A stretch of DNA of 64,000 nucleotides from Intestinibacillus massiliensis. GTDB taxonomy: Bacteria > Bacillota > Clostridia > Oscillospirales > Butyricicoccaceae. A program made the position numbers and the translations under genes. The stretch covers positions 124,001-188,000 of the forward strand of contig JAJUJC010000002.1 of assembly GCA_029267335.1 (NCBI GenBank). The letters run 5' to 3'. Positions 2,299 to 18,356 of this stretch are shown one piece after another (positions within the stretch are counted from its first letter, which is position 1; each line of letters starts with the position of its first letter). The notes beneath the pieces were generated by a model. That model did not search any database and was not told where the DNA came from. It worked only from the letters and a program-made list of their open reading frames with translations.

Positions 2299-3309
2299 TT
2301 ACTTCTTCTGATACTGTGCAACGTTGTCCTTGTTGATCCAGATGCACTCGGTATAGCTTGTCGGCTGTACGGTTTCGCCGTTCAGCAGCTTGACCATCGT
2401 GTCCACGCCGAGCGCGCCCTGACCGGGTGCGTCCTGCGAGATCGTACCCGACAGACGACCGGCTGCGATCGCTGCGACGGCGTCATCGACGGCGTCGATG
2501 CCATAGACCTTGATCTTATCCTGTAAGCCGGCATCCTCGACTGCCTTGAGCGCGCCCATTGCCATGCCGTCGTTCTGTGCGACGATCGCATTGAGCTCGG
2601 TGCCGGTCTGGAGCCAGTTCTCAACGAGCGTGAGCGCGTCGGCAGTGACCCAGTTTGCGGTCTCATCAAACACCATTTTCACATTGGGATTGGCTTTCAG
2701 CACCTTGTCGTAGCCCTGCTTGCGGATGAGCTGACCGTCGGAACCCATCGGACCATACAGCACGGCGATATTGCCCTTGCCGCCCAGTTCCTCACAGACC
2801 TTGGTCATTTGCAGCTCGCCTGCCTTGGAATCGTCGCCGCCGCAATAGGCCTTGGCATACTGCTCCTGGCCGCTCATTTTCTGTACCACGGTAATGACCG
2901 GGATCTTTGCGTCATTGGCTTCCTTGACTGCGGGTACGATGCCGTCGACCGAGACCGGCTCGACCAGAATGCCGTCATAGCCGGAGTTGATCGCCTGCTC
3001 GATCTGGCTCGTCTGCGTCGCCTGATCCTGCTTGCCGTCAAATACATCGACGGTCACGCCCAGTTCCTCGCCCTTTGCCTTTGCGCCTGCAGAAACCGCG
3101 GTCGTAAAGGCGTTGGTCTGGTGGCTCATGCACAGCGCGATGCGGTAGTTTTTGCCGCTTGCCGTGCCGGCAGCAGCATCCCCCGACGCTGCCGCATCGG
3201 TTTTCGTGCCTGCTGCGTCGTCGGTCTTTGCTGTGTCCGCACCGCCGCACGCCGTCATCGTCAGCGCCATCGCGCCTGCCATCAGCATTGCCAAAAGTCT
3301 CTTTTTCAT
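2299..3309 (-). CDS. Sugar ABC transporter substrate-binding lipoprotein (ribose/galactose type)
   Basis: This 336-residue protein starts with a lipoprotein signal peptide ending TMTACGG, where Cys is the lipidation site. An acidic, Ala-rich linker precedes a family 1 periplasmic-binding domain of the RbsB type: YRIALCMSHQTNAFT at the start, then GYDGILVEPVSVDGIVPAV, and INKDNVAQYQKK at the end. It should sit on the outer face of the membrane and deliver a sugar to the permease at 3372. It is last in the ATPase-permease-binding protein order, 62 bases after the permease. The ligand is not evident; ribose, galactose or another aldose are all possible. Confidence 0.9.
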   Translation of the reverse strand: MKKRLLAMLMAGAMALTMTACGGADTAKTDDAAGTKTDAAASGDAAAGTASGKNYRIALCMSHQTNAFTTAVSAGAKAKGEELGVTVDVFDGKQDQATQTSQIEQAINSGYDGILVEPVSVDGIVPAVKEANDAKIPVITVVQKMSGQEQYAKAYCGGDDSKAGELQMTKVCEELGGKGNIAVLYGPMGSDGQLIRKQGYDKVLKANPNVKMVFDETANWVTADALTLVENWLQTGTELNAIVAQNDGMAMGALKAVEDAGLQDKIKVYGIDAVDDAVAAIAAGRLSGTISQDAPGQGALGVDTMVKLLNGETVQPTSYTECIWINKDNVAQYQKK

Positions 3310-3371: not shown

Positions 3372-4349
3372 CTATGCTTTTTTGCCCTTGCCGCGGATAT
3401 CCATCAGTACCGCGAAAATAATGATAAATCCCTTGATGATGAGCTGGAAATTGGAATTGACGCGCAGGATGTCCAGACCGTTCGAGATGACCGCGAGCAT
3501 GAGCGCGCCGATGACGACACCGTGCCATTTGCCGGAGCCGCCCGACATGGATACGCCACCGATGACGACCGCTGCGATCGCATCCATTTCATAGGACTGT
3601 CCTGCGGTGGGCGAGCCGGTGATCGTACGGGAAGCGACGAGCAGACCCGCAAGTCCGGCGAGCACGCCCGAGATCGTATAGACCGCCACGCGCAGACGGC
3701 GCACATTGATGCCGGACACCTCCGCCGCGGTCTGGTTGCCGCCGATGGCATAAATGCGGCGGCCGAAGATGGTCTTATTGAGAATGAACGCGCAAATTGC
3801 TACGATGATAACCAGATAAAACGCGAGATACGGGATGCCCGCAAGCTTTCCGGAGGCGATCTTTTCAAATTTAGCCGTGACGTCAAAGACCGGAGAGCCG
3901 CCCGAAACGATGAGCGCAAGCCCGCGCACGATCGTCATAGAACCCAGGGTGACGATAAAGGGCGGGATGCCGCCATAGGCGATGCCCACGCCGTTGAACA
4001 CGCCCACCAATGCCCCGACGAGCAGTGCGGCGAGGATGGGCACGAGAAAGGGATACTGCCCTGCGCCGGTCGTCGCCCCCGTTGCCGCCGGATGCGCACA
4101 CATACACGCGACTACACCCGACAGACCGACGATCGAGCCGACCGAAAGGTCGATGCCGTCTGATAAGATGACAAACAGCATGCCCATCGCGAGGATGCCG
4201 TTCACCGAGGTCTGCTTCAATACGTTGATAAAGTTTTTCGCGTTTGCAAATTTACCGCCCGAGATGACCGACAGCGCGATGACCAGAACCAAAAAGATCA
4301 GCAGCAGTCCGAAATCCTTCATTAAATGCTTATTTTTCATTTTATCCAT
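3372..4349 (-). CDS. Sugar ABC transporter permease (RbsC type)
   Basis: This 325-residue integral membrane protein has eight to ten hydrophobic segments and the RbsC-family hallmarks GMLFVILSDGIDLSVGS and, near the C-terminus, AAVVIGGVSMSGGSGK. It forms the channel of the importer encoded by its neighbours. The ATG at 4349 has GGGGAG eight bases upstream. A GTG at 4358 that overlaps the ATPase stop codon as GTGA is a less likely start. The short overlap or spacing with the ATPase shows cotranscription and translational coupling. Confidence 0.88.
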   Translation of the reverse strand: MDKMKNKHLMKDFGLLLIFLVLVIALSVISGGKFANAKNFINVLKQTSVNGILAMGMLFVILSDGIDLSVGSIVGLSGVVACMCAHPAATGATTGAGQYPFLVPILAALLVGALVGVFNGVGIAYGGIPPFIVTLGSMTIVRGLALIVSGGSPVFDVTAKFEKIASGKLAGIPYLAFYLVIIVAICAFILNKTIFGRRIYAIGGNQTAAEVSGINVRRLRVAVYTISGVLAGLAGLLVASRTITGSPTAGQSYEMDAIAAVVIGGVSMSGGSGKWHGVVIGALMLAVISNGLDILRVNSNFQLIIKGFIIIFAVLMDIRGKGKKA

Positions 4350-4354
4350 TGCTC

Positions 4355-5845
4355 TCACTCCCCAAATTGTGCGGCATATGTCATGATGCGCTCCTGCGAG
4401 AACGCGCTGCGCTCGACCTCGCCGGTCAGCCGCCCCTCCGCCATGACAATGATTCGATCGGCAAGCCCCATGACCTCGGGGATCTCGGACGAGATGACGA
4501 TGACCGCCTTGCCTGCCTGGACCATCTCCCCGATGAGCAGATAAATATCGCGCTTGGCGCCGACGTCGATGCCGCGTGTCGGCTCATCGAGAATGATGAT
4601 GTCCGGCTCGGTGACGAGCCACTTGGCAATGACCACCTTTTGCTGGTTGCCGCCGGACAGGTTGCCGACGAGCTGCTCCGGTCCGGGCGTCTTGATCGAC
4701 AGCTCCTCGATATAGCGGTTCGCGATGCTTTTTTCTTTCGCGTGGTCGATCAGACCGGACGGAAACAGCCGCTTGAGCTCGACCAATGTGACATTTTCTG
4801 CGACCGAGCCGTCCAGATTCAGACCGGTGAATTTGCGATCCTCCGTAATGAGTGCCAATTTGTGTGCAATGGCATGCGCAGGCGTATCCAGTTTGACCGG
4901 TTTGCCGCCGATGAGGATGTCTCCCGCCGATTTGCGGCGCATCCCGAAGATGGTCTCGACAAGCTCGCTGCGTCCCGCGCCGACCAGTCCTGCAATGCCG
5001 AGCACCTCGCCGCGGCGCAGCGTGAAGCTGACGTTCCGCACGCGGCTGCCCATCGACAGACCGCGCACCTCGAGCAGTGTTTCACCGATCTGCGCGTCCG
5101 CCTTGGGGAATACCTCGGTGATGTCACGACCGACCATCATGCGGATGAGCTGCTCGCTCGTCATGTGCGCGGCGGCGTCCGTCCCGATGAATTTACCGTC
5201 GCGCAGCACCGTGATCGTATCGCAGATCTTGAAGATTTCGTCCATTTTGTGCGAGATATAGATGATCGCCACGCCTTCGCTGCGCAGGCGGCGGATCTGC
5301 GTGAACAGCGTATCGACCTCGCGGTCTGTGATCGCGGAAGTCGGTTCGTCCATCACGATGACCTTGGCTTCGATGGAGATCGCCTTGACGATCTCAATGA
5401 GCTGACACTGTGCGACCGACAGATCGCGCATGTAAGCGGTCGCGGAAATGTCGATGCCCAGCTTTTGCAGCAGCGCGGCAGTCTCCTTCTGCATGGTCTT
5501 TTGGTCGACCAGCATCCCGCGCTTTTTTTCCCGCCCGATGTAAATGTTTTCGTACACCTGCATATCCAGAATCGGATTGAGCTCCTGGTGGATCATCGCG
5601 ATGCCGCGATCCATCGCGTCGCGCGGATTGCGCACGGTAAACGGCTGTCCGTCAAAGACCAGTTCGCCTGCGTCCGCCGTATAGATGCCCATGAGGATCT
5701 TCATCAGCGTGGATTTACCCGCGCCGTTTTCCCCCATGAGCGCGTGCACCTCGCCCGGTCGGATGCGCAGCGTAACATCATCGAGTACCTTTACGCCCGG
5801 GAATGATTTTGCGATATGGTTCATCTCCAGTACGAATTCCGCCAT
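4355..5845 (-). CDS. Sugar ABC transporter ATP-binding protein (RbsA/MglA type)
   Basis: This 496-residue protein has two fused nucleotide-binding domains, as in RbsA and MglA. The first has GENGAGKST and VIVMDEPTSAI. The second has GLVGAGRSE, LSGGNQQKV and ILDEPTRGID. The arginine in the second Walker A (GAGRSE) is usual for this family, where only one site hydrolyses efficiently. It powers the permease at 3372. The ATG at 5845 has AGGAGGGG upstream; the longer frame to 5911 runs into the terminator hairpin and is rejected. All motifs are intact here, unlike the paralogue at 6866. Confidence 0.92.
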   Translation of the reverse strand: MAEFVLEMNHIAKSFPGVKVLDDVTLRIRPGEVHALMGENGAGKSTLMKILMGIYTADAGELVFDGQPFTVRNPRDAMDRGIAMIHQELNPILDMQVYENIYIGREKKRGMLVDQKTMQKETAALLQKLGIDISATAYMRDLSVAQCQLIEIVKAISIEAKVIVMDEPTSAITDREVDTLFTQIRRLRSEGVAIIYISHKMDEIFKICDTITVLRDGKFIGTDAAAHMTSEQLIRMMVGRDITEVFPKADAQIGETLLEVRGLSMGSRVRNVSFTLRRGEVLGIAGLVGAGRSELVETIFGMRRKSAGDILIGGKPVKLDTPAHAIAHKLALITEDRKFTGLNLDGSVAENVTLVELKRLFPSGLIDHAKEKSIANRYIEELSIKTPGPEQLVGNLSGGNQQKVVIAKWLVTEPDIIILDEPTRGIDVGAKRDIYLLIGEMVQAGKAVIVISSEIPEVMGLADRIIVMAEGRLTGEVERSAFSQERIMTYAAQFGE

Positions 5846-5882
5846 GCGTTTCCCCCTCCTTGCCCCTTTTTTGGTTGCTCCC

Positions 5883-5911
5883 ATCATACAAAAAATCCGC
5901 CCCCTGTACAA
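5883..5911 (-). promoter_or_regulatory. Promoter of the sugar importer, nested in the upstream terminator
   Basis: On the minus strand TTGTAC (5906-5911) and TATGAT (5883-5888) are separated by 17 bases. The -35 lies in the loop and the spacer in the 3' arm of the terminator at 5888-5926. It would give the importer its own transcript. Confidence 0.5.
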
Positions 5912-5926
5912 TGGGGCGGATTTTAC
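5888..5926 (-). terminator. Terminator of the regulatory/permease operon
   Basis: On the minus strand AAAATCCGCCCC pairs with GGGGCGGATTTT around a nine-base loop and continues into TTTTTTG. It separates the two sugar ABC units. Confidence 0.75.
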
Positions 5927-5942
5927 ATGATGGGGGACAAAA

Positions 5943-6869
5943 TTAAGATTTTGTTATTTTTGTGGAAATTGCAAGAAATAGGATGCCGCCTTTTATCAGG
6001 TTTTGATAATAATACGGCGTGCGCAGGCCGATAAACGCCGTACTGAGCGTGGCGAGCAGCAGCGTGGCGCACACCACGGGCAGGATCTTTCCGCGTCCGC
6101 CCTGAAAACCCACCCCGCCGAGCGCGGCGGCGGTCATGACGTCGAGCACGGATTCGCCTCCCGCGTCGAGCGACGCAAGCCCGATCCGTCCGGTGAAGGC
6201 GATCGCGCCGCACGCACACAGCAAGCTGCACAGCGCAAACGCGAGCACGCGTGTGCGGCGCACCGGCACACCCGCGCGCTCCGCTGTGCTTTCGTCGCTG
6301 CCCACGGCATAAAAAAATTTTCCCCAGTAGGTGTGGTGCAGGATCAGACCGGCGAGGAGCACGGTGCCCGCGAACAACAGCGAGCAAAACGAAAACCGAC
6401 CGATTTTGGCGGACACCATGCGCTCGAGCGAGCCCGGAATATTAAACAGCGGAAGCCCGCGTGCGACAATGTAGGTCACGCCTTGCAGCGTGACGGCGGC
6501 GGCAATCGTTGCGACCATGGAATTGAGCCGGCGCGTTTGAATGAGCCAGCCGAGCGTTCCGCCGATCACAAGCGCACACGCCATCGTCAGCAGCATTGCG
6601 ACCGGCAGGACGATGCCCTGTTTCATGAGATAGACGCATAAAACGCCGTAAAGCGAGGTCTGTGCGCCGATCGACAGGTCAATATCGCCGCAAATCAACA
6701 CAAACAGCATGCCGATCGCAAGAATGCCCGTGATGGATGCCTGTGTGAGGATGTTAAAATACATGCCCACATGATGAAAGCCGGGCACACACGCGCGGCA
6801 TACGAGCAGCAGCCCGAACAGCGCCGCGGCAACATAGGCGCCCGCATCCGCGCGAAGCGTTTTTTTCAT
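5943..6869 (-). CDS. Second sugar-type ABC permease (RbsC type)
   Basis: This 308-residue membrane protein resembles the permease at 3372: GMLFVLICGDIDLSIGAQ near residue 60 and TAAALGGVGFQGGRGK near the C-terminus, with eight or more hydrophobic segments. The ATG at 6869 overlaps the stop of the preceding gene as ATGA and has GGGAGGA upstream, so it is translationally coupled to the degenerate ATPase. No substrate-binding gene lies in this operon. It may share the binding protein at 2299, or it may act with the pseudo-ATPase as a sensor instead of an importer (inference). Confidence 0.85.
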   Translation of the reverse strand: MKKTLRADAGAYVAAALFGLLLVCRACVPGFHHVGMYFNILTQASITGILAIGMLFVLICGDIDLSIGAQTSLYGVLCVYLMKQGIVLPVAMLLTMACALVIGGTLGWLIQTRRLNSMVATIAAAVTLQGVTYIVARGLPLFNIPGSLERMVSAKIGRFSFCSLLFAGTVLLAGLILHHTYWGKFFYAVGSDESTAERAGVPVRRTRVLAFALCSLLCACGAIAFTGRIGLASLDAGGESVLDVMTAAALGGVGFQGGRGKILPVVCATLLLATLSTAFIGLRTPYYYQNLIKGGILFLAISTKITKS

Positions 6870-8194
6870 ACCGTATCCTCCCGCAAAGTCCCGCCTTCCC
6901 AATAGAGCAGCGACGCCGGATTGTCAAACAGCTCCTCCGCGCCCGAGGTGATGTGCACGACACAGCAGCCGTCCGCAAGCAGGCTTTGCGTCGCCTGTGC
7001 GAACACCGCACGGTCCGCGCGGTCTGCGCTCGGATGCTCAAGCACATAGACACGCGTCCCGCGCAGCGAGGCGCGATAGAGCAGCAGACTGAGCTGTTCG
7101 CCGTGCGTCAGCCGATCCGGCGTGCCCGAGAGCTGTGCGTCGCGCAGACCGGTGTGGGCGGCGCACTCCTGCCGCACCAGTCGGCGCATGCGCGCCCGAA
7201 TATGCCAAAACGGGCCGGCAATGCGCGTGGACACTGCGAGCAGCAAATTGTCAAGGATGTCCATGCCCGTGACCCAACTGTGCGCAGCGGCGTCTGCACC
7301 GAGCACCGCGGGCGCGGGCAGCTTTTCTTTGGCGCATGCATGCGAGAGCGCACGCACAAAATCATGTGCCGTACCGTCGTGGTCGAGGATTGCCACATAA
7401 CTGCCCGCATAAAACTGCCGCGCGCATGCGGTCACGAGCGGCGCACCGGCGGCGTCCTGCGCGAGGGACAGCCGAACGGGGGCGCAGTAGCCGTAGAGAT
7501 AAGGGCGCATCGCCGCGCGTGCGCCATCGAGCGGATGGAGGAGCTTTACGACGCGCCCGCGCTCGATTGCGGCGCAGCGCTGCAAGGAATAGAGAACCTT
7601 GTCCATATACGCAGCGGTGTACAGGACCGTCAAGCCGCGTGCGCGCACGCGGGCGATCGTATCCGCGAGCGCAATGCACTCTTCTACGGTGCAGCCGTCC
7701 GCTGCGCCATCGAGCGCAACAAAGCGCTTGCCTTGCAGCGCCGCACGCACGAGCAGCAGTCTGTGCTGCAACGGAGGCGGCAGCTCCGCAGGAGATGCAT
7801 CCAGATAGCGTTCCAGACCGTACGGCGCAAGCAGCTCGCCGCATAGCCGCCGCAGCCGCCGCGCAGGATACCAAAACCGCCGAAAAGACTGCGCAAGCAG
7901 CAGATTTTCCGCCACGCTCAGACCTTTGAGCAGGCGACTCTCCCGGTCGATGCGCAGGCTGACGCGCTGCAGGGTCTGGGCATCCGTAGGCTGTTCGTCG
8001 AGTAAAATGCAGCCGCCCTGCGGCACGATCTCGCCGCACAGTGCCTGGCACAGGCTGTGCTTGCCCGCGCCCGCCGTGCCCACGATGCCGAAGCCGCTTC
8101 CCGCGGTCAGCAGAATATCAACGTGATCGAGCCGGGGCTGCCCCGCATCGTCGCAGTACACAAGTCCGCAGGCGCGCAAGACCTCATGTTCCAT
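6866..8194 (-). CDS. Degenerate tandem ABC-ATPase (pseudo-ATPase), sugar-transporter family
   Basis: This 442-residue protein has the two-domain layout of RbsA-type ATPases, but most catalytic motifs are altered. Walker A of domain 1 reads GTAGAGKHS (39-47), with His at the usual Thr/Ser after the lysine. Its Walker B reads VALDG (159-163), with Gly in place of the catalytic Glu. In domain 2 the P-loop region is DHDGTAHDF (271-279), the signature is LTHGEQLSL, and LEHPS replaces LDEPT (385-389). Domain landmarks such as LSVAENLLLAQ remain. The reading frame is intact and coupled to both neighbours, so it is under selection and not a fresh pseudogene. It may bind ATP weakly, act structurally, or serve a signalling role. 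The ATG at 8194 has GGGAGAGG upstream. Confidence 0.75.
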   Translation of the reverse strand: MEHEVLRACGLVYCDDAGQPRLDHVDILLTAGSGFGIVGTAGAGKHSLCQALCGEIVPQGGCILLDEQPTDAQTLQRVSLRIDRESRLLKGLSVAENLLLAQSFRRFWYPARRLRRLCGELLAPYGLERYLDASPAELPPPLQHRLLLVRAALQGKRFVALDGAADGCTVEECIALADTIARVRARGLTVLYTAAYMDKVLYSLQRCAAIERGRVVKLLHPLDGARAAMRPYLYGYCAPVRLSLAQDAAGAPLVTACARQFYAGSYVAILDHDGTAHDFVRALSHACAKEKLPAPAVLGADAAAHSWVTGMDILDNLLLAVSTRIAGPFWHIRARMRRLVRQECAAHTGLRDAQLSGTPDRLTHGEQLSLLLYRASLRGTRVYVLEHPSADRADRAVFAQATQSLLADGCCVVHITSGAEELFDNPASLLYWEGGTLREDTV

Positions 8195-9206
8195 CGCTGC
8201 CCTCTCCCTGCTGCCGCGGCAGGAGCAGCACAACATCGGTGCCCGTGCCCACGGTGCTCATGATCTGCATGCCGTAATACTCCCCAAACATCAAGCGAAT
8301 ACGGCGTGCGACGTTTGGCAGAGCAAGACCGGTGCTGCGTCCGTCCGCACGCGCTTCCACGGTTTCGCCGCGCACGCGCGCTTGCAGCGCAAGCAGCGTC
8401 TCCTCGTTCATGCCCATGCCGTCATCGGACACGGTGACGATGACCAGATGCTCCGTCCCCTCCACGCGGATCATGATCGTACCCGTCGCAAGCATGCCCT
8501 CCATCCCGTGCAGGATCGCGTTTTCCAAGATCGGCTGTAACGACAGCTTGGGCAAACGGCACTGCTCCAAATCGTCCCGTGCAATGGGAAGAATGGACAG
8601 CCGAAACCGGTTATTAAATCGAAATTGCTGTATTTTAAAATAATTTCGCACGTTTTCAAGCTCTTCCTCCAGCGTGACCACACTGTCCCGATTGGAGATC
8701 GAGTACCGAAAAAAGGTGGAGAGCGCCTCGGTCATATCCGCAATATCCTCCGCCCCTTTGAAAAGCGCCTGTCCGCGGATGGAATCGAGCGTATTATAAA
8801 GAAAATGCGGGTTGATCTGGCTTTGCAGCGTGCGCAGCTCGACCTGTCCGCGCAGCAGCGCTTCGTCATACTGGGCATGCACTTTGCCGCCCAGTGCGCG
8901 CAGCGTCCGCCCTGCGGTGAAGCCGTCAAGCGTGGTCTGCGCATCGAGCCGTGTCAGCATGCGGTCAAACGGTTCCTCCGGCGTACCGAGCGCCGCCTCT
9001 GCGGTGCGCAGCGGACGGAATACCCAACGGTAGAGTGCGCATGCGCATGCAACGCTCACGCCCGACAGCGCGATCAGCCCCGCAAACGCAGGGATCACCC
9101 TGAGCATGCTCAGGAAAAGGAGCACAATAGCCGCGCCGCCGCTCAAGATCGTGAGCATGCTCAGGCGCGCGCTCAGATGACACCAACGCTCCCTCATCGT
9201 TTTCAC
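8184..9206 (-). CDS. Sensor histidine kinase of the LytS/YesM group without a sensor domain
   Basis: This protein of about 340 residues has two membrane segments (roughly 15-37 and 42-62) joined by only a few residues. A short HAMP-like linker precedes a His_kinase domain with the phosphoacceptor in INPHFLYNT (His134), and a C-terminal ATPase domain follows (QPILENAILHG, SDDGMGM, GTGTDVVL). YesM-type kinases normally carry a 200-residue extracellular sensor, which is missing here. It should phosphorylate the regulator at 9216. The start is either GTG 9206 or ATG 9197; neither has a strong ribosome binding site. It overlaps the start of the pseudo-ATPase gene by 11 bases, implying one regulatory unit. 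Confidence 0.88.
   Translation of the reverse strand: MKTMRERWCHLSARLSMLTILSGGAAIVLLFLSMLRVIPAFAGLIALSGVSVACACALYRWVFRPLRTAEAALGTPEEPFDRMLTRLDAQTTLDGFTAGRTLRALGGKVHAQYDEALLRGQVELRTLQSQINPHFLYNTLDSIRGQALFKGAEDIADMTEALSTFFRYSISNRDSVVTLEEELENVRNYFKIQQFRFNNRFRLSILPIARDDLEQCRLPKLSLQPILENAILHGMEGMLATGTIMIRVEGTEHLVIVTVSDDGMGMNEETLLALQARVRGETVEARADGRSTGLALPNVARRIRLMFGEYYGMQIMSTVGTGTDVVLLLPRQQGEGSDGT
9101..9163. repeat. Pair of perfect 12-bp palindromes TGAGCATGCTCA
   Basis: Exact copies lie at 9101-9112 and 9152-9163, 51 bases apart, inside the first 105 bases of the histidine kinase gene. The same palindrome occurs in pairs at 30414/30486 and 56814/56855. Confidence 0.8.
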
Positions 9207-9215
9207 CGCACTTTC

Positions 9216-10805
9216 TCACAGATACAACTTTTTGTATTGGGTAGGGTTGACCCCGACGACGCGCGTAAACAGCTTGCTAAAATATTTCGCGTCCTTGTAC
9301 CCGACTTTTTCCGCCGCGGTCAGCATGCTTTCCCCGTCGCGCAGCAGGGCTTTTGCGGTTTCGATGCGCACACCGGTCAGGTAATCCTTAAAATTCGTGC
9401 CGGTCTCTTTTTTAAACAGAACGGACAGATACACCGGATTGAGATCGACCGCCGCCGCCACTTGGTTGAGACTGAGCGGCTCCATGTAATGTGCCGCGAC
9501 AAGTTCCTTGACCTGCCGGATCGGGCGGTTTTCCGCCGAGCGCACGGCTTCGCGCACGGTTTCGATCTGTGCGGCGGCGACCTCGCCCAGGCGCCGTCCG
9601 ATACGAGGCACGTCCGGTATATGACGCAGCTCGCGCTCGAGCACAGGGCGGTCGAGGTAACGCGTGACATCCGCACCGATGTCGAACGCGCTGAGCGCAT
9701 GGTTCATTGTGCCGATCACCCATCCGGCGTAGCCGAATACGGCGGCGGCTTGTGCTGCATCGGAGCGTGCAAGCGCGGAAAACCCGCTCTCGATCTCGGT
9801 ACGCACCGTGACGCTGTCTAAGATCTGCATTGCCGCAGACAGCCTGCCGCATGCGTCAAAATCCACGACCGTGTGAAAATCCGCCTCGGTGCGCAGGGCG
9901 GCGGCTTCCTTGTGGATGCTGTGCGCCGGGTCAAAAAGCTGTTCGTATGCCGCGCTTTCCGCGCGCGCAAATAAGCGGTCGAAGGTCTCCTCGCCATGCA
10001 AAAATGCCGCGCCGAGAGAAACGTCCCATCCGCTGCAAATGGCGAGCACCGCGCGGCAGCCGTCGAGCATCAGGCGGAGCCCCGGCATGCCCTCCGCGGT
10101 ATCACACGCGCACAGCAGGAGCAGCCCGCTGTCTTGCCGCAGGAGCAAGTGTTCGCGGAACCACTCATCCGCCTGTGCGTCCAGATAGGTGCATACCTTG
10201 CCCTCAAGCAGCCGCAGGGTCTCCTCCGAAAAGGTGCTGTAGCACAAAAAATGCCATGCCAGTGCGCAGCATGTGCCCGATAGATCGACCGCATACTGTT
10301 CTGCCAAATAGGTGCGGGTCAGACGGTCGTCCTCTAGCGCGCCGCCCTGCCAATCCGCGAGCAGCCGCTCACGGTCGTGCTTTACGCGGTCTATCTCCGA
10401 TACGCCGCCCTCCGCGGGGTCGACGGACTGCTCTGCAAGCTCTGCGATCGCCTTGCGCAACGCGGTTTCCAGATCGTTCTTCTTCAGTGGCTTCACCACA
10501 TAGTCGGTCACGCCGAGCTGGATCGCCTTTTGTGCGTATTCAAACTCCCGATAGCCGCTGATAAGCACAAAACGACAGTGAAAGCCGCGCTCCCGCGCCT
10601 TTTCAAGCAGATCTATGCCGCTGTAGCCGGACATGCGGATATCGGAGATCACGATATGAGGACTGCATGCGGTGAGCATTTCAAAGGCTTCCACGCCGCT
10701 GTTTGCAATGCCGACGAGTTCCAACCCTAGCGCATCCCAGTCCACCAGATACTGCACAAGCTGACACACATGGATCTCATCGTCGCAAAGTAATACGCGA
10801 TACAT
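9216..10805 (-). CDS. Response regulator with AraC-type DNA-binding domain (YesN type)
   Basis: This 529-residue protein begins with a receiver domain: acidic pocket CDDE (7-10), phosphorylation site Asp55 in VISDIRM and Lys105 in VVKPL. A long middle region of about 280 residues has no motif I recognise. The C-terminal 100 residues form a double helix-turn-helix of AraC type (SLNQVAAAVDLNPVYLS, then FKDYLTGVRIETAKALL and VGVNPTQYKKLYL). Such regulators usually activate sugar uptake genes. It is the first gene of the kinase/pseudo-ATPase/permease operon and probably controls it, the importer at 2299-5845, or both. Confidence 0.9.
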   Translation of the reverse strand: MYRVLLCDDEIHVCQLVQYLVDWDALGLELVGIANSGVEAFEMLTACSPHIVISDIRMSGYSGIDLLEKARERGFHCRFVLISGYREFEYAQKAIQLGVTDYVVKPLKKNDLETALRKAIAELAEQSVDPAEGGVSEIDRVKHDRERLLADWQGGALEDDRLTRTYLAEQYAVDLSGTCCALAWHFLCYSTFSEETLRLLEGKVCTYLDAQADEWFREHLLLRQDSGLLLLCACDTAEGMPGLRLMLDGCRAVLAICSGWDVSLGAAFLHGEETFDRLFARAESAAYEQLFDPAHSIHKEAAALRTEADFHTVVDFDACGRLSAAMQILDSVTVRTEIESGFSALARSDAAQAAAVFGYAGWVIGTMNHALSAFDIGADVTRYLDRPVLERELRHIPDVPRIGRRLGEVAAAQIETVREAVRSAENRPIRQVKELVAAHYMEPLSLNQVAAAVDLNPVYLSVLFKKETGTNFKDYLTGVRIETAKALLRDGESMLTAAEKVGYKDAKYFSKLFTRVVGVNPTQYKKLYL

Positions 10806-10879: not shown

Positions 10880-10909
10880 ATCATACCACAGCAAAGGCGG
10901 AAACCGCAA
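10880..10909 (-). promoter_or_regulatory. Promoter of the regulator/kinase operon
   Basis: On the minus strand TTGCGG (10904-10909), an 18-base spacer and TATGAT (10880-10885) lie 75 bases upstream of the regulator start. Confidence 0.55.
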
Positions 10910-10978: not shown

Positions 10979-12151
10979 TCACTCTGCAAGATTGTAGATG
11001 TGCAAAATGCGCTCGCGCGTCAGCTCGCCGTAGCACGAGGGTGGGGTCTTGGTGCCGCCGCCGGTCGTGAGATCCGCGATTGCGGCATAGTCCGCGGGCG
11101 TCACGCCCAGCTCCGCCATCGTGGTCGGCATACCGATCTCGCGGAAGTACGCGCGCATCGCGTCGATGCCTGCGCGTGCGGTGCGCGCGGGGTGATCGTG
11201 GTCCATCGTGCAGCCCCACACATTGACCGCAAGGCGCGCAAAGCGGCGCACATCGCGCTCCATGACCTCGTACATCCACGCGGGGAAGAGCACGGACAGA
11301 CCCGCACCATGCGCAACAGCAGGATGCAGACCGGAAATGTCATGCTCGAGCTTGTGCACGGTGAAGGCATAGTCCTTGCCGCAGCCGGTCAGCCCGTTGT
11401 GCGACAGGGTCGATGCCCACATGAGCGTTGCGCGCGCCTCGTAGTCATCGGGATGCGCAATCGCGACACGGCCCGCGTCGCGCACGGACACGAGCAGCGC
11501 CTCCGCGATACGGTCGGTCAGGTCGGTGTCCGTGTCGGGCGTGCAGTAGCGCTCGAGCGTGTGCATCATCGTGTCGACGATGCCGCAGCCGGTCTGGAAT
11601 TTGGACACGGTGAACGTGTTTTCGGGGTTTAAAAAGGAAATGAGCGGGCGGTTGAGCGGTGTGCTCAGCCCGCGCTTAAGATCGCCGTTCGTGATGACCG
11701 CGGAGTCGCTCATTTCGCTGCCCGTTGCGGACAAGGTGAGCACGGTGCCGAGCGGCGTGGTGCGGTCGGGCTTTTCGCCGGTCGCAATGAATTCCCACGG
11801 GTCGCGTCCGGTCGCATAGCCGTGCGCGATGAGCTTTGCGGAGTCGATGGCGGAGCCGCCGCCGACGGCGAGGATGAAGTCGATCTTTTCGCGCGCGCAT
11901 ACCTCCATGCCCTCGCGCACCAGCTCGATGCGCGGGTTGGGCTGTGCGCCGCCGAACTCGACGAAGGTCAGTCCCGCCTCGGTCAGGCTTGCCTCAACCT
12001 GATCCAGCAGACCGCTTTTCCTGACGCTGCCGCTGCCGAAGTGCAGCAGCACCCGCGTGGCGCCGAGCGCTTTGAGCTCCGTGCCGATGCGCGCCTCGAT
12101 TCCGCGTCCGAATACGATTTTCGTGGGTAAACACAGGTTAAAATCATGCAT
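10979..12151 (-). CDS. Iron-containing alcohol dehydrogenase (butanol dehydrogenase-like)
   Basis: This 390-residue group III alcohol dehydrogenase would reduce aldehydes with NAD(P)H, or the reverse, in the cytoplasm. The nucleotide-binding half has HFGSGSVRKSG and the cofactor loop GGGSAIDSAK (about 94-103). The metal-binding half has the His-rich stretch EHDISGLHPAVAHGAG and a later DHDHP. It starts at ATG 12151 and is the last gene of a four-gene minus-strand operon, 21 bases after the reductase. It differs clearly from the other iron dehydrogenase at 14059, so the two are unlikely to be a recent duplication. The substrate is unknown. Confidence 0.9.
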   Translation of the reverse strand: MHDFNLCLPTKIVFGRGIEARIGTELKALGATRVLLHFGSGSVRKSGLLDQVEASLTEAGLTFVEFGGAQPNPRIELVREGMEVCAREKIDFILAVGGGSAIDSAKLIAHGYATGRDPWEFIATGEKPDRTTPLGTVLTLSATGSEMSDSAVITNGDLKRGLSTPLNRPLISFLNPENTFTVSKFQTGCGIVDTMMHTLERYCTPDTDTDLTDRIAEALLVSVRDAGRVAIAHPDDYEARATLMWASTLSHNGLTGCGKDYAFTVHKLEHDISGLHPAVAHGAGLSVLFPAWMYEVMERDVRRFARLAVNVWGCTMDHDHPARTARAGIDAMRAYFREIGMPTTMAELGVTPADYAAIADLTTGGGTKTPPSCYGELTRERILHIYNLAE

Positions 12152-12172: not shown

Positions 12173-13096
12173 TTATGAAATGGGAGCGGGACGCGCTTCG
12201 ATCGCGCGGATCGCATCGTAAAGGGTGTCGTTGACCGGTGTGGGGATGCCGTGTTTCACGCCCAGACGGCACACGGTGCCTGCGAACAGGTCTAGCTCGG
12301 TCTTGCGGCCGCGCAGGGTGTCCTGCCGCATGGAGGTCATGCCGCACGGGTCGAGCGTGTCGATGAGGGCGATCCAGTCGTCGATCTCGCGGTCGGTCAG
12401 GGTAACGCCCTCGCACGCCGCGACGCGCTGCGCTTCGACCATCGCCGCACGCATTTCGTCGCGCGGTGCGCCCGGTTGCTGCACACCTGCATAGGGTAAC
12501 CCGTGCGCTGCGGTCACCTGGTTGACGCCTACGTTGAGCATGAATTTGCTCCAGAGCTGATGGCGGATGTCGTCCGGCAGCCGATAGGCAAGCCCTGCGC
12601 GGTCGAGCGCGGCGCATACCGCGGTCAGCCGTGCGCTCGTGCCGCCGTTTGCCTCACCGAGCGCAAGATAGCCCGCGTTCGTCCAGCGCATATCCACGCC
12701 GTCGCGCGTCGCGTCCATGCCCTGCACCGTGCAGTAGAGCAGCTTGTCGCCGTAGACCGCGGCAATTTCCCCCTCGCTCACCACGCCGTTGAGCGTGCTG
12801 ACCAAAATCGTATGCGCGCCGACAAACGGGCGCACGCGCTGGGTAGCGTCTGCAAGCCCGGGGTATTTGACGCAAAACAGCAGTAAATCGACCGGTTCCG
12901 CGCCGTTTTCTCCGGTCTCGTAGCGGAAATCGCAGGGCACGCCGTTACACTGGACGCCGTCGCGCGTGTAGCGCGCTGCGCGGTCGGGATCGACAATAAA
13001 GCACACGTTCTCCCGTCCGAATGCACGCTGAAAGGCGTTTCCGTATAAAATGCCGATCGAACCCAAGCCGATCAGCCCAATTCTTTGAATTTGCAT
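12173..13096 (-). CDS. 2-dehydropantoate 2-reductase family protein (ApbA/PanE)
   Basis: This 307-residue protein has the Rossmann fingerprint IGLIGLGSIGILYG at the N-terminus, a central CVKYP where ketopantoate reductases have CVK, and the C-terminal helical region with the conserved Lys-Asn pattern (SKFMLNVGVNQ). The family reduces 2-ketopantoate to pantoate with NADPH in coenzyme A synthesis, but many paralogues act on other 2-keto acids. With no pan genes nearby and two alcohol dehydrogenases in the same operon, a catabolic 2-oxoacid reduction is equally likely (inference). It lies 21 bases after the asparaginase gene. Confidence 0.85.
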   Translation of the reverse strand: MQIQRIGLIGLGSIGILYGNAFQRAFGRENVCFIVDPDRAARYTRDGVQCNGVPCDFRYETGENGAEPVDLLLFCVKYPGLADATQRVRPFVGAHTILVSTLNGVVSEGEIAAVYGDKLLYCTVQGMDATRDGVDMRWTNAGYLALGEANGGTSARLTAVCAALDRAGLAYRLPDDIRHQLWSKFMLNVGVNQVTAAHGLPYAGVQQPGAPRDEMRAAMVEAQRVAACEGVTLTDREIDDWIALIDTLDPCGMTSMRQDTLRGRKTELDLFAGTVCRLGVKHGIPTPVNDTLYDAIRAIEARPAPIS

Positions 13097-13117: not shown

Positions 13118-14032
13118 TCACAAGTCGCCGCACGCGATGGCGGCGAGACTGTCCTCAATGGTGCGCGCGCCCAGATCGACTGCGCCGCGCGCGCGCGCGC
13201 GGCAGCCGACCGCATACTTGGTCAGATCCGCGCCGCCGAACGGGCACTGGGTCGTGATGTATACGCGTGTGCGCGCGGCGATGAGCGCGCCCAGCGCGTC
13301 CTCCAGCCGTGCGGGGATGCCGCCCGCGCCGAAGCTCTCGAGGATAACGTGGTCGAAGCCGTGCAGCAGCGCAAACACGGCGGGATCGGTGTCGGGCGTC
13401 AGGCGCAGCACGAACACGCGCGTGTCGCGCGGCTCGACCAGACGGGGCGCGCGCGTGCGCGGCGGCTGCTGCGCGACGGATACCGTGCCGTCCGCGTGTA
13501 TGCTGCCGTCCGGCGGCGCGCCGACCGACATAAACGCCGCGACCGCTGCACTGTCGACCTTGACGACGCGGCTGCCGCGCAGGATGAGTCCGTGCACGCA
13601 CGCCGCAACGCCCGTGTACCTGCCGCTCGCCGCGACGCGGAACGCGCCGAGCAGGTTGCCCTCCGCGTCGGAATCGGGTGCGCCGATGGGGTACATCGAG
13701 CCGGTCAGCAGCACGGGCTTGTCAAAATCGGGCAGCATGTGTGCGAGCAGTGCGGCGGTATAGGCGAGGGTGTCCGTGCCGTGCGTCACGACGAAGCCGT
13801 CGTAGTCCGCACGCGCGTCCCAGATGACATGGGCCATGCGCACACGGTCGGCAGTGGTCAGATCGGTCGAGTCGAGCGCGCACACATCGCGCACTGTGAC
13901 GTGGCACACCTGCGCGAGCGTGGGCACGAAGCGCAGTAGCACCTGACCGGTCAGGGCGGGGGTTAGCCCCCCGCCCTGTGAAACGCGGCTTGCGATGGTT
14001 CCGCCCGTCGCAAGCATGAGAATGTGCTTCAA
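13118..14032 (-). CDS. L-asparaginase, cytoplasmic type
   Basis: This 304-residue protein has the first catalytic threonine loop LATGGTIASR at the N-terminus and the second, VTHGTDTLAYTA, in the middle. Both are diagnostic of the asparaginase/glutaminase family, which hydrolyses asparagine to aspartate and ammonia. There is no signal peptide, so it should be cytoplasmic and slightly shorter than the usual 320-340 residues. It is the second gene of the operon, 26 bases after the first dehydrogenase. Its place between reductases suggests an amino acid or amide fermentation pathway, but this is inference. Confidence 0.88.
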   Translation of the reverse strand: MKHILMLATGGTIASRVSQGGGLTPALTGQVLLRFVPTLAQVCHVTVRDVCALDSTDLTTADRVRMAHVIWDARADYDGFVVTHGTDTLAYTAALLAHMLPDFDKPVLLTGSMYPIGAPDSDAEGNLLGAFRVAASGRYTGVAACVHGLILRGSRVVKVDSAAVAAFMSVGAPPDGSIHADGTVSVAQQPPRTRAPRLVEPRDTRVFVLRLTPDTDPAVFALLHGFDHVILESFGAGGIPARLEDALGALIAARTRVYITTQCPFGGADLTKYAVGCRARARGAVDLGARTIEDSLAAIACGDL

Positions 14033-14058: not shown

Positions 14059-15213
14059 TCAGCGGTAGCTGCGGCGCAGGATGTCGATGACGTCCTCACG
14101 CGAAAGCTGCTTGCGGTCGAGCTTGAAGAGCGCGCCCATGGTCGCGCGCGCGTTATCCGCGTAGTCCCCAAACTTTTCTTCGGTGATACCAAACTCGCTC
14201 ATGCGCAGGTCGTCCACGCCGCACGCGCGCTGCAAGTCCGCCAGTGCTTCGAGGAAGTCCTCCGCGCGGTTGGCGTCGGTCTTGCCCAGGGCACGCGCCA
14301 TGTCGATGAAGCGTTCGTCGCACACGCCGAGCAGTGTCTCAAAGTACGCGAGCGACAGCATGATAAGTCCCGCGCCGTGGGTCAGCTTGGGGTGGAACGC
14401 GCTCAGCGCATGCTCGATGGAATGCTCGGACACGCACGAGGACATGCTCTCGACAAAGCCGGACAGCGTGTTCGCGAGCGCAACGTCCGCGCGCGCGTCC
14501 ATGTCCATACCGTCTGCGACCGCGCGCGGCAGGCTCTTGCCGATGAGCTCGATGCTGCGCAGCGCATACATGTCGGTGATGGGGCTGGCGATGGTCGCGA
14601 TGTAGCCCTCGACCGCGTGGAACAGCGCGTCAAAGCCCTGATACGCGGTCATGCGCGGCGGCACAGTGCTCATGAGCTCGGGGTCGACGATGGACAGCGT
14701 CGGGAAGGTCTTGTCGCCGCCCGAGCCGATCTTTTCCTCGCCGTGCGTCACGACCATCCACGGGTCGGCTTCGGTGCCCGTGCCCGCGGTCGTGGTGATG
14801 GCGACGATGGGCAGCGGGTCGTGCTCCATGCGCTTGCCGCCGCCCGTGCCGCCATAAACATAGTCCCAGTAATCGCCGGGGTTTGCCGCCGCAACCGCGG
14901 TCGCCTTGGCGGTGTCGATGGACGAGCCGCCGCCCAGACCGACGACGAAATCGCAGCCCTGCTCGCGCGCAAGCGCCGCACAGGCGCGCACGCTGTCGAT
15001 GGTCGGGTTGGGCTGCACCTGATCGTACAGCACACTGTCTGCACCCGCCTGCGTCAGCAGCGAGCGCACCAGATCGACATAGCCGAGCTTGGTCGTCGAG
15101 CTGCCGCCCGTGATGAGCAGCGCTTTTTTACCCGGGAGACGGGTTTTTGCAAGTTTTTTGACGCTGCCCGCGCCAAAAAAGATGCGTGTAGGCATATAGT
15201 AGTTAAATCCCAT
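14059..15213 (-). CDS. Iron-containing alcohol dehydrogenase, first gene of the operon
   Basis: This 384-residue group III enzyme begins with YYMPTRIFFGAGSV. It has the cofactor loop GGGSSIDTAKATA (about 95-107), GTGTEADPWMVVT and the metal-ligand region HSIEHALSAFHPKLTHGAG. It should interconvert an aldehyde or ketone and an alcohol. The ATG at 15213 has AGGAGG upstream; the longer frame to 15282 is not supported. A weak minus-strand promoter (TATAAT at 15335-15340, -35 TTTATT) would start the operon. Sequence outside the motifs differs from the paralogue at 10979, so different substrates are likely. Confidence 0.9.
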   Translation of the reverse strand: MGFNYYMPTRIFFGAGSVKKLAKTRLPGKKALLITGGSSTTKLGYVDLVRSLLTQAGADSVLYDQVQPNPTIDSVRACAALAREQGCDFVVGLGGGSSIDTAKATAVAAANPGDYWDYVYGGTGGGKRMEHDPLPIVAITTTAGTGTEADPWMVVTHGEEKIGSGGDKTFPTLSIVDPELMSTVPPRMTAYQGFDALFHAVEGYIATIASPITDMYALRSIELIGKSLPRAVADGMDMDARADVALANTLSGFVESMSSCVSEHSIEHALSAFHPKLTHGAGLIMLSLAYFETLLGVCDERFIDMARALGKTDANRAEDFLEALADLQRACGVDDLRMSEFGITEEKFGDYADNARATMGALFKLDRKQLSREDVIDILRRSYR

Positions 15214-15419
15214 AACGGTGTCCTCCTGTGTGTTTCCGCCCGCTCGCGCGGGCGTCAGTCCTGTGTATGGTCGTACGCGCACCCTATGTGCGCAAGGGCA
15301 ATCCCCTGCAAGGAATAAAAACCCCAGTATTTATATTATAGCAAACTTTCTCGCGCAATAAAAGCACAAAATGACGATTTTTAGCCCTTCTTTTTGTACC
15401 GTTTTACGCCTTGAAACCG

Positions 15420-16614: not shown

Positions 16615-16925
16615 AAGGTCACGGAGCGCCGTGGCTGCCAAACCGATGACGAAGACGAGTAGGCCGAATTTTCCGCCTTCCAGAGAGCCGCGGGCGCTGT
16701 GAGCGCGGCAGGGGGAACCGGTGCGAATGGACTTCATCAGGGCGAGCCGAACCGCCGCAGGGCGCAGTACGCAAGACGGGGACTCCACCCGTTACCAGGG
16801 GAGCGTGCATTTTTTTGATGTGCGAAAACGAGTGGGCGCCCACGGGCGTCAATCCGGGTGGTACCGCAGAGGCTTCGGCTTTTGTCCCAGAATTATTGCA
16901 TGGGGCGAAGGTCGTTTTTTTATGC
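16615..16925 (+). promoter_or_regulatory. T-box leader with a tryptophan specifier
   Basis: The leader has the Stem I element AGAGAGC (from 16682), a specifier loop whose codon is UGG (16728-16730, in GCGAATGGACTT) and the T-box sequence TGGTACCGCA (16859-16868). The antiterminator bulge would pair with the acceptor end of uncharged tRNA-Trp. A competing terminator can form between CTTC...GTCCCA and TGGGGCGAAG, ending in TTTTTTT at about 16914. Downstream is a tryptophan synthase beta gene, which fits the specifier. Expression should rise when tRNA-Trp is uncharged. Confidence 0.88.
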
Positions 16926-16973
16926 CTTCTTCCCAAATCATTTGTCACAAGCGATGAAAAGGAGAACACGATT

Positions 16974-18356
16974 ATGGCTAAAATTCCTCACAGACTGTAC
17001 CTCACCGAAGACCAGATGCCCACCCAGTGGTACAATCTGCGCGCCGATATGCCTGCGCAGCACGATCCGCTGCTCAACCCCGGTACGCTCCAGCCCATCA
17101 CCGAGCCCGAGCTGTACCCCATTTTCTGCAAGGAGCTTACCCATCAGGAGATCGACAGCGCGACACGCTTTGTCGACATCCCGGAAGAAGTGCAGGAAAT
17201 CTATAAAATGTATCGTCCTTCGCCGCTTTGCCGCGCATATCATTTGGAAAAGGCGCTCGGCACGCCCGCGAAGATCTACTATAAGTTCGAGGGCAACAAC
17301 ACCTCGGGCAGCCACAAGCTCAACTCCGCGGTCGCGCAGGCGTACTATGCGAAGGAGCAGGGCATCACCAAGCTGACGACCGAGACCGGCGCGGGCCAGT
17401 GGGGTACCGCCCTGTCCGAGGCGTGCGCATACTTCGGCATCGACCTCGACGTGTTCATGGTCAAGGTATCCTATGAGCAGAAGCCCTTCCGCAAGGCGGT
17501 CATGCAGGTGTTTGACGCAAACGTCACCCCCTCTCCGAGCGCGCTGACCGAGATCGGCAAGAAAATCCTTGCGGAAAACCCCGGCACGGGCGGCTCGCTC
17601 GGCTGCGCGATCTCGGAAGCGGTCGAGCGCGCGGTTACGACGGAAAACTGCCGCTATGTGCTCGGCTCGGTGCTCAATCAGGTGCTGCTGCACCAGTCGA
17701 TCATCGGTCTGGAGAGCGCGATCGCGATGGAGCAGCTCGGCGAATATCCCGATGTTGTCATCGGCTGCGCGGGCGGCGGCTCGAACCTCGGCGGACTGAT
17801 CGCGCCTTTCATGCGCGACAAGCTGACCGGCAAGGCGAATCCGCGCATCGTCGCGGTCGAACCCGCGTCCTGTCCGTCCTTTACGCGCGGCAAGTACGCC
17901 TATGACTTCTGCGACACGGGCAAGGTCACGCCGATGGCGCGCATGTACACGCTGGGCTCGGGCTTTATGCCCGCCCCGAACCACGCGGGCGGTCTGCGCT
18001 ATCACGGCATGAGCCCCATTTTGTCAAAGCTGTACCACGACGGCTACATGGAAGCGGTCTCGGTCAAGCAGACCGACGTGTTTGACGCCGCGGTGTTCTT
18101 CGCGAAGAACGAGACCATTCTGCCCGCACCCGAGTCCGCACACGCCATTCGCGGCGCGATCGATGAGGCGCTGCGCTGCAAGGAGACCGGCGAGGCAAAG
18201 ACCATTCTCTTTGGTCTGACCGGCACGGGCTACTTTGATATGACCGCATACGCCGCCTATCACGACGGCAAGATGGTCGACCATGTGCCGAGCGATGAGG
18301 AGCTGCAAAAGGGGTTCGACACCCTGCCGCACATCCCGCAGAACGAGGGAATCTAA
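16974..18356 (+). CDS. trpB: Tryptophan synthase beta chain-like protein (TrpB2 type)
   Basis: This 460-residue PLP enzyme condenses indole with serine to give tryptophan. The cofactor lysine is Lys115 in NTSGSHKLNSA; GAGQWG and the phosphate-binding GCAGGGSN follow. The long N-terminus and extra C-terminal region place it in the TrpB2 group, which often lacks a neighbouring trpA. None is present here, so it probably uses free indole or an unlinked alpha chain. The ATG at 16974 has AAAAGGAG upstream; the open frame extending to 16815 is T-box leader. Regulation is by the tryptophan T-box. It is monocistronic. Confidence 0.92.
   Translation: MAKIPHRLYLTEDQMPTQWYNLRADMPAQHDPLLNPGTLQPITEPELYPIFCKELTHQEIDSATRFVDIPEEVQEIYKMYRPSPLCRAYHLEKALGTPAKIYYKFEGNNTSGSHKLNSAVAQAYYAKEQGITKLTTETGAGQWGTALSEACAYFGIDLDVFMVKVSYEQKPFRKAVMQVFDANVTPSPSALTEIGKKILAENPGTGGSLGCAISEAVERAVTTENCRYVLGSVLNQVLLHQSIIGLESAIAMEQLGEYPDVVIGCAGGGSNLGGLIAPFMRDKLTGKANPRIVAVEPASCPSFTRGKYAYDFCDTGKVTPMARMYTLGSGFMPAPNHAGGLRYHGMSPILSKLYHDGYMEAVSVKQTDVFDAAVFFAKNETILPAPESAHAIRGAIDEALRCKETGEAKTILFGLTGTGYFDMTAYAAYHDGKMVDHVPSDEELQKGFDTLPHIPQNEGI

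Follow-up and report, generated by a model that had tools for sequence, protein, structure and literature searches.

We analyzed a 64,000-nucleotide (nt) stretch of the Intestinibacillus massiliensis genome (GenBank assembly GCA_029267335.1, contig JAJUJC010000002.1, positions 124,001 to 188,000; hereafter the window, whose genome carries the label G000). On its minus strand a YesN-type response regulator (RR), a sensor-less LytS-type histidine kinase, a degenerate tandem ATP-binding cassette (ABC) ATPase and an extra RbsC-type permease (perm2) precede a sugar importer (Table 1). Only 9 nt separate the regulator and kinase genes, and the overlaps are 11 nt between the kinase and the degenerate ATPase (pseudo-ATPase or pseudo-RbsA) and 4 nt between the latter and perm2; we chose the ATG at 8194 as the start of the pseudo-ATPase, its longest frame beginning at 8236. 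These coordinates bear out a preliminary description of the window, made from the sequence alone, which had placed the four genes in one tight operon followed by a complete and normal sugar importer. The RbsA, RbsC and sugar-binding protein (SBP) of the importer are normal by profiles, and the motifs of RbsA are intact. The two-component pair is of the LytS/YesM-YesN type, with His_kinase (PF06580) and HATPase_c in the kinase and, by Pfam, a receiver and an AraC-type domain in the regulator. Comparison with relatives identified the pseudo-ATPase, and not the extra permease, as the constant partner of the kinase.

Table 1. Genes and features of the sensing unit and the adjoining importer; positions are those of the window, lengths are in amino acids (aa).
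Feature	Position	Strand	Basis
YesN/AraC-type response regulator, 529 aa	9216..10805	-	translation; Pfam Response_reg, HTH_18, HTH_AraC
Sensor-less LytS-type histidine kinase, 340 aa	8184..9206	-	His_kinase and HATPase_c behind a short hydrophobic N-terminus
Degenerate tandem ABC-ATPase (pseudo-RbsA), 442 aa	6866..8194	-	catalytic motifs gone in both halves; ABC fold in the model
Extra RbsC-type permease (perm2), 308 aa	5943..6869	-	Pfam BPD_transp_2 over residues 36-300
Hairpin 3' of perm2, candidate intrinsic terminator between the two units	5880..5934	-	folding energy
Normal RbsA/MglA-type tandem ATPase of the importer	4355..5845	-	motifs intact
RbsC-type permease of the importer	3372..4349	-	Pfam/NCBIfam profiles
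Sugar-binding protein (Peripla_BP_4), putative ligand presenter	2299..3309	-	profile match

The open frame of the window kinase allows 343 aa at most, and the His_kinase domain begins at residue 123. An overlooked sensor domain, which the preliminary description had named as a possible counterargument, was ruled out because this frame offers no longer start. The same description had given the kinase two membrane helices. In a hydropathy comparison of 28 kinases, with a cutoff of our own and a pattern that missed G713, two peaks lying 2-22 residues apart were found in 20 and no peak in 7; the window kinase itself gave a single merged peak, so that its two helices rest on its relatives. The seven kinases without a predicted membrane segment belong to one clade (G006, G031, G050, G053 C17, G061, G064 and G068), and their ATPase partners have no recognisable first Walker A. 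Since 7 of the 28 kinases have no membrane segment, their input should come via a cytosolic partner. The frame of the G068 kinase is nominally 755 aa, and the protein was counted as short because an in-frame stop sits 5 codons ahead of the start used.

In the pseudo-ATPase of the window the first Walker A lacks the Ser/Thr that should follow its Lys, and the second Walker A is gone, as are the catalytic Glu, the H-loop His and both signatures. We compared the motifs of 28 pseudo-ATPases with those of 21 live RbsA proteins, and used the same set for a tree; G070, G040, G019, G056, G501, G528, G460, G763, G1006, G1099 and G974 were left out. The first Walker A was intact in 3 of the 28 and the second in one (G592), compared to 21/21 RbsA for each, and the second signature was found in none of the pseudo-ATPases and in 20/21 RbsA. 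Three residues invariant in RbsA (21/21) were rare on the degenerate side, namely the first Walker B Glu (4/28, as an Asp-Glu pair in 1/28), the Q-loop Gln (1/28) and the H-loop His (3/28), and the first Gly of the second Walker A, also present in 21/21 RbsA, was replaced by Asp in 21/28 pseudo-ATPases. One element was largely retained. The Asp/Glu-Asn element that follows the Q-loop, and that we take to sit at the permease interface in known importers, had Asp/Glu in 27/28 and Asn in 20/28 pseudo-ATPases in half 1, and in 23/28 and 28/28, respectively, in half 2. Moreover, the pseudo-ATPases have in common an N-terminal M-x-x-E-x-x-R (Glu in 27/28, Arg in 24/28), at positions that most RbsA proteins fill with Tyr (14/21) and Glu (19/21).

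By its ABC_tran domain and its tandem nucleotide-binding domain (NBD) fold the window pseudo-ATPase belongs to the ABC-ATPase superfamily, and it falls outside the active RbsA/MglA proteins, with Walker A, signature, Walker B Glu and H-loop each broken. Pfam ABC_tran matched a single stretch in the first half only (48.1 bits, compared to a cut-off of 25). The best match to a curated NCBIfam sugar-ATPase (YtfR) reached 69.6 bits, short of the cut-off of 850, a weak test because the live neighbouring RbsA also falls short of its own (597.6 vs 828 for MglA). A structure model built from the alignment of 28 relatives had a mean predicted local distance difference test (pLDDT) of 86.1 and a predicted template modelling score (pTM) of 0.66, and showed an ABC-ATPase fold. 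It matched single NBDs such as 5x41_D (Z 25.4, 228 residues, root-mean-square deviation 2.8) and the DppABCD chain 8wda_D (Z 24.5, 427 residues, root-mean-square deviation 4.7). A PDB sequence search with a profile of the pseudo-ATPases (A7) returned generic ABC proteins among the best 60 of 575 matches.

As a sole query, the window ATPase was found in only 3 of 149 genomes at E 1e-15: its own, G081 (42% identity) and G026; against genome contigs it gave one match, with 28% identity over 178 residues, in a Microbacteriaceae metagenome-assembled genome. With a single sequence as query the pseudo-ATPase looked rare, and profiles changed the picture. G081 carries the same seven genes as the window, in the same order. 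The G026 locus (L013, G026:C33:10000-29000) consists of a kinase C-terminus and then a degenerate ATPase that abuts an opposite-strand permease fragment; the contig, with just the C-terminal part of a kinase and 6% contamination, looks chimeric, and the locus was used only among the ATPases. A profile of three ATPases retrieved, within the order, degenerate ATPases beside short kinases. With a profile of the short kinases we recovered 19 kinases in 17 of 394 genomes of the order at E < 1e-80, all of them short genes, and most of the kinases below that threshold had frames of some 600 aa. Among 391 genomes of the class we counted at least 19 kinases in at least 18 genomes, with frames below 380 aa and a match from residue 20 or earlier, and weaker short kinases may be missing from these figures. 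Among 299 genomes of the phylum, three besides the own genome reached E 1e-80, all outside the class. With overlaps removed, this makes at least 37 distinct sensor-less kinases. Short kinase frames running off contig ends (G056 C14:39455, G035 C54 and G118 C6) were set aside, and a 266-aa protein matching from residue 113 (G491 C89) was left out.

Among the matches listed, a degenerate RbsA-like protein was present in every genome of the 37 kinases and lay adjacent to 34 of them, including the convergent G508 and G460, which is cut by a contig end. Among these same matches, two kinases (G185 and G592) lie two genes away, in the order pseudo-ATPase-RR-kinase, and one is unlinked: the G763 kinase, on C30 (L122), is directly followed by a live importer, and its pseudo-ATPase is on C6 (L170 9115-10569), near ileS-like and peptidase-like genes identified by eye. 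A scripted count found a pseudo-ATPase within 1.5 kb in 34/37 rows with a kinase of up to 400 aa, compared to 0/26 rows with a kinase of at least 444 aa, one control row (L112) being cut by the end of its stretch. After removal of three duplicate loci the figures were 31/34 vs 0/26 (Fisher p 5e-14, which is only a guide because the rows share descent and the profile was built from the positives). In the reverse direction, all 11 proteins that reached at least 420 bits against the pseudo-ATPase profile in 196 genomes of the class were in these systems, 8 of the 11 being rows of that profile. The G763 pseudo-ATPase scored 542.6 bits against A7 without an adjoining kinase. The window pseudo-ATPase scored 351 bits and live RbsA up to 375, so the score alone does not separate the two and undercounts divergent members. 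With the pairing of kinase and pseudo-ATPase recurring and the gene order shared by G081, the arrangement is beyond chance.

The neighbors of the pair vary. The order RR-kinase-pseudo-ATPase followed by RbsA-RbsC-SBP was found in G173, G108, G473, G478, G544, G699, G797, G1099 and G974, and in G713 the order is RR-kinase-pseudo-ATPase-SBP-RbsA-RbsC. The unit comes after RbsA-RbsC-SBP in G050, G068, G031 and G053 C17, and after RbsA-RbsC in G006. The pseudo-ATPase of G508 is convergent to the kinase, and at G053 C8 importer genes accompany RR-kinase-pseudo-ATPase only on the other strand, about 3 kb off. Of the loci read, only the window, G081 and a second system of the window genome (G000:C1 about 250426-256745; L079 5427-11746) have an extra permease. 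This second system consists of an RR, a binding lipoprotein (SBP), a kinase, a pseudo-ATPase and an RbsC-type permease, with dehydrogenase-like genes following and an MFS_2 symporter gene nearby; no live RbsA was present within the 17 kb read. Upstream of the G473 system (L115, 11573-17001) we noted by eye inositol-catabolism-like genes (IolB-, IolE- and IolD-like), which hint at a ligand of this one system. At L070, L071, L073, L074 and L077 a longer kinase of this family precedes a binding-protein gene, an arrangement that resembles XylFII-LytS.

The pseudo-ATPase is under purifying selection in closer pairs. The ratio of nonsynonymous to synonymous substitution rates (dN/dS) ranged from 0.03 to 0.17 over the six closer pairs for which it was finite, one of which (G006/G031) has a dS of 2.3; the G699/G797 pair gave no estimate. 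In a quick tree the 28 pseudo-ATPases fell on one side of a branch with a support of 98 and did not nest with the RbsA of their neighborhoods. Because the branches of the tree are so long, a single origin is not established by it. Recent local duplication of the neighboring RbsA was unsupported, the window protein not being sister to it in this tree with its long branches. Across 17 systems, pseudo-ATPase distances correlated more closely with those of the RR (0.96) and the kinase (0.94) than with those of RbsA (0.90), and kinase with RbsA distances at 0.86, all of these values being inflated by shared ancestry.

We also considered the boundary between the two units of the window. The hairpin 3' of perm2 has a folding energy of -33.2 kcal/mol (z -5.32) and a 12-bp core with arms at 5913-5924 and 5892-5903 and a loop of 9 nt; a T run follows it, and A and T runs flank it on its two sides. 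It did not appear in a simple terminator list because the loop limit of that list is 8 nt. The sensing unit and the importer may be transcribed separately, or be only partly coupled. Promoters had been proposed earlier at 5883 and 10880. We found no promoter-like match at 10880 and one at 5910-5883, inside the hairpin region, among six such matches where 3.5 ± 1.9 were expected. Upstream of the regulator, on the same strand, we recognized by eye two genes like iron-type alcohol dehydrogenases (10979-12151 and 14059-15282) and, between them, a ketopantoate reductase-like (12173-13096) and an asparaginase-like gene (13118-14032). A TrpB-like pyridoxal phosphate (PLP) enzyme at 16815-18356 and a ZIP-type metal transporter at 1333-2172 were likewise assigned by eye.

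The preliminary description had drawn a parallel to BceS and BceAB, which stands as an analogy and not as a relationship. According to PMC7828314, BceS-type kinases without a sensor depend on an ABC transporter, and the BceB-like permease has an extracellular loop of about 200-250 aa. The likeness lies in a kinase without an extracellular sensor, as found here, and in an ABC transporter as its sensing partner. BceAB is a working transporter with a large-loop permease, whereas here the kinase is of the LytS type, the ATPase is dead and the permease is of the RbsC type; perm2, with 308 aa in all and BPD_transp_2 over residues 36-300, shows no such loop. In the CuaDSR and XylFII-LytS systems of Clostridia, as outlined in PMC10384115, a YesN-type regulator and a kinase are likewise tied to a sugar-binding protein, which joins an extracytosolic part of the kinase (the CuaS helices are at 30-49 and 316-339). 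No such part is present in our kinase, and a dead ABC-ATPase is found instead. The SBP gene of the window belongs to the importer and not to the two-component operon; the second system has one between RR and kinase. RbsA and MglA resemble the pseudo-ATPase in tandem NBD fold, length and the Asp/Glu-Asn element, and differ in that the pseudo-ATPase has lost the catalytic motifs and gained the N-terminal M-x-x-E-x-x-R. In the MalK-MalT system an ABC motor protein also controls gene regulation, but MalK is an active ATPase that acts on a transcription factor, with no kinase involved.

We propose that the receptor of the sensor-less kinase is probably a dead ABC importer, with pseudo-RbsA as its sensory adaptor or input subunit. 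Pseudo-RbsA would retain the fold of an ABC motor and a docking element without the equipment for ATP cycling, and would dock on a permease, perm2 in the window and the RbsC of the importer elsewhere, to form a non-transporting receptor. The arrival of a ligand-loaded binding protein would change the conformation of the permease, and this change would pass through the dead motor to the catalytic part of the kinase. The YesN regulator, once phosphorylated, would then set the expression of the adjoining sugar importer. We infer the docking, the relay and its direction, the ligand and the target promoter from sequence comparison. The preliminary description had cast the pseudo-ATPase and its permease as the sensing unit. 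This is still the best reading and gains comparative support from the association, the selection, the membrane-free kinases and the second system; its weak part is the extra permease, which is not constant. The loss of the catalytic motifs next to the largely retained docking element speaks for it as well, and so do the distances of the pseudo-ATPase, which follow those of RR and kinase more than those of RbsA.

Several observations weigh against this proposal. The receptor model comes from comparison of sequences, and the permease contact of the Asp/Glu-Asn element is one that we presume. Docking on a shared RbsC had to be assumed because most systems read show no extra permease. Homologues with restored catalytic motifs, which the preliminary description had thought of as a counterargument, turned up in small part: G592 retains most ATP-site motifs in both halves (the H-loop His, the second Walker A and the Asp-Glu pair of each half), G185 retains a number of them, and neither signature is present in these two least degenerate members. 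In some members of the family ATP may therefore still have a role. Between the distant G000 and G081 the pseudo-ATPase has a dN/dS of 0.40, higher than that of the kinase (0.25), perm2 (0.27) and RbsA (0.09), at a dS near saturation. The tree was made by a quick method, and its long branches meet. In wider sets the pseudo-ATPase distances, with the same inflation by common descent, also track those of the SBP (0.92) and RbsC (0.89), which were simply the nearest ones. Finally, further live RbsA-like genes elsewhere in the window genome could serve the second system.

The main rival is that the kinase responds to transport by the live importer. Pseudo-RbsA would bind RbsA or RbsC of that importer in just one state, idle or working, and would thus report flux or occupancy to the kinase, comparable to the signalling of MalK to MalT or of BceAB to BceS. 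Many systems adjoin a complete RbsA-RbsC-SBP importer and have no extra permease, and the correlation of 0.90 between pseudo-ATPase and RbsA distances would also fit. We nevertheless consider this rival unlikely, as the window unit has an extra permease of its own and the second system has a permease and an SBP but, over the 17 kb read, lacks a live ATPase, which speaks against flux sensing and is not decisive. Less probable still is a cytosolic ligand sensor, in which the dead nucleotide site would serve as a pocket for a sugar phosphate or a nucleotide and the kinase would be controlled without contact to a permease. The kinases without membrane segments suggest such a sensor, as does G053 C8 with its importer genes only on the other strand, whereas the Asp/Glu-Asn element kept in each half and the frequent linkage to RbsC-type permeases speak against it.

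The remaining explanations dispense with sensing by the pseudo-ATPase. Systems with two different permeases exist, for example LsrC/LsrD, and perm2 has conserved positions in common with RbsC; perm2 and RbsC could accordingly make up a heteromeric permease in which the pseudo-ATPase is structural, the kinase being linked only for regulation. We judge this very improbable, since a terminator-like hairpin divides the two units and the pseudo-ATPase accompanies the kinase where no second permease was seen. Hardly credible at all is that the pseudo-ATPase is an RbsA duplicate in decay, on its way to a pseudogene. Motif loss, the faster divergence in the window lineage and the shortened gene of G005 would be expected of decay, but the pseudo-ATPases do not group with the RbsA of their neighbors and recur outside the class, and the low dN/dS of the closer pairs makes a pseudogene unlikely for the family.

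Compared to these alternatives, the dead importer as receptor remains our preferred explanation. The system is real and recurrent, and so far as our searches show it is undescribed: we found no description of the pair of dead ATPase and kinase in literature searches outside of which lay most subscription journals and all preprints. It is a variant of transporter-assisted kinase sensing and possibly a receptor class of its own. On a bolder version we are evenly divided, namely that a new class of receptor exists in the class of the window and beyond it in the phylum, in which a whole ABC importer was made a sensor by the death of its motor, the dead tandem ATPase became an obligate relay subunit, and the kinase was stripped of its sensor and, within a single clade, of its membrane anchor as well. 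The pure form would then be the second system of the window genome, with a binding protein, a permease and a dead ATPase, no motor of its own, and uptake left to the symporter. Because evolution has removed the ATPase cycle here, the communication from an ABC motor to a kinase becomes testable. If the proposal is true, ABC importers are able to turn into pure receptors, as bacterial equivalents of transporter-like nutrient receptors (transceptors), and a sensing mechanism would be given for a set of seemingly blind two-component systems.

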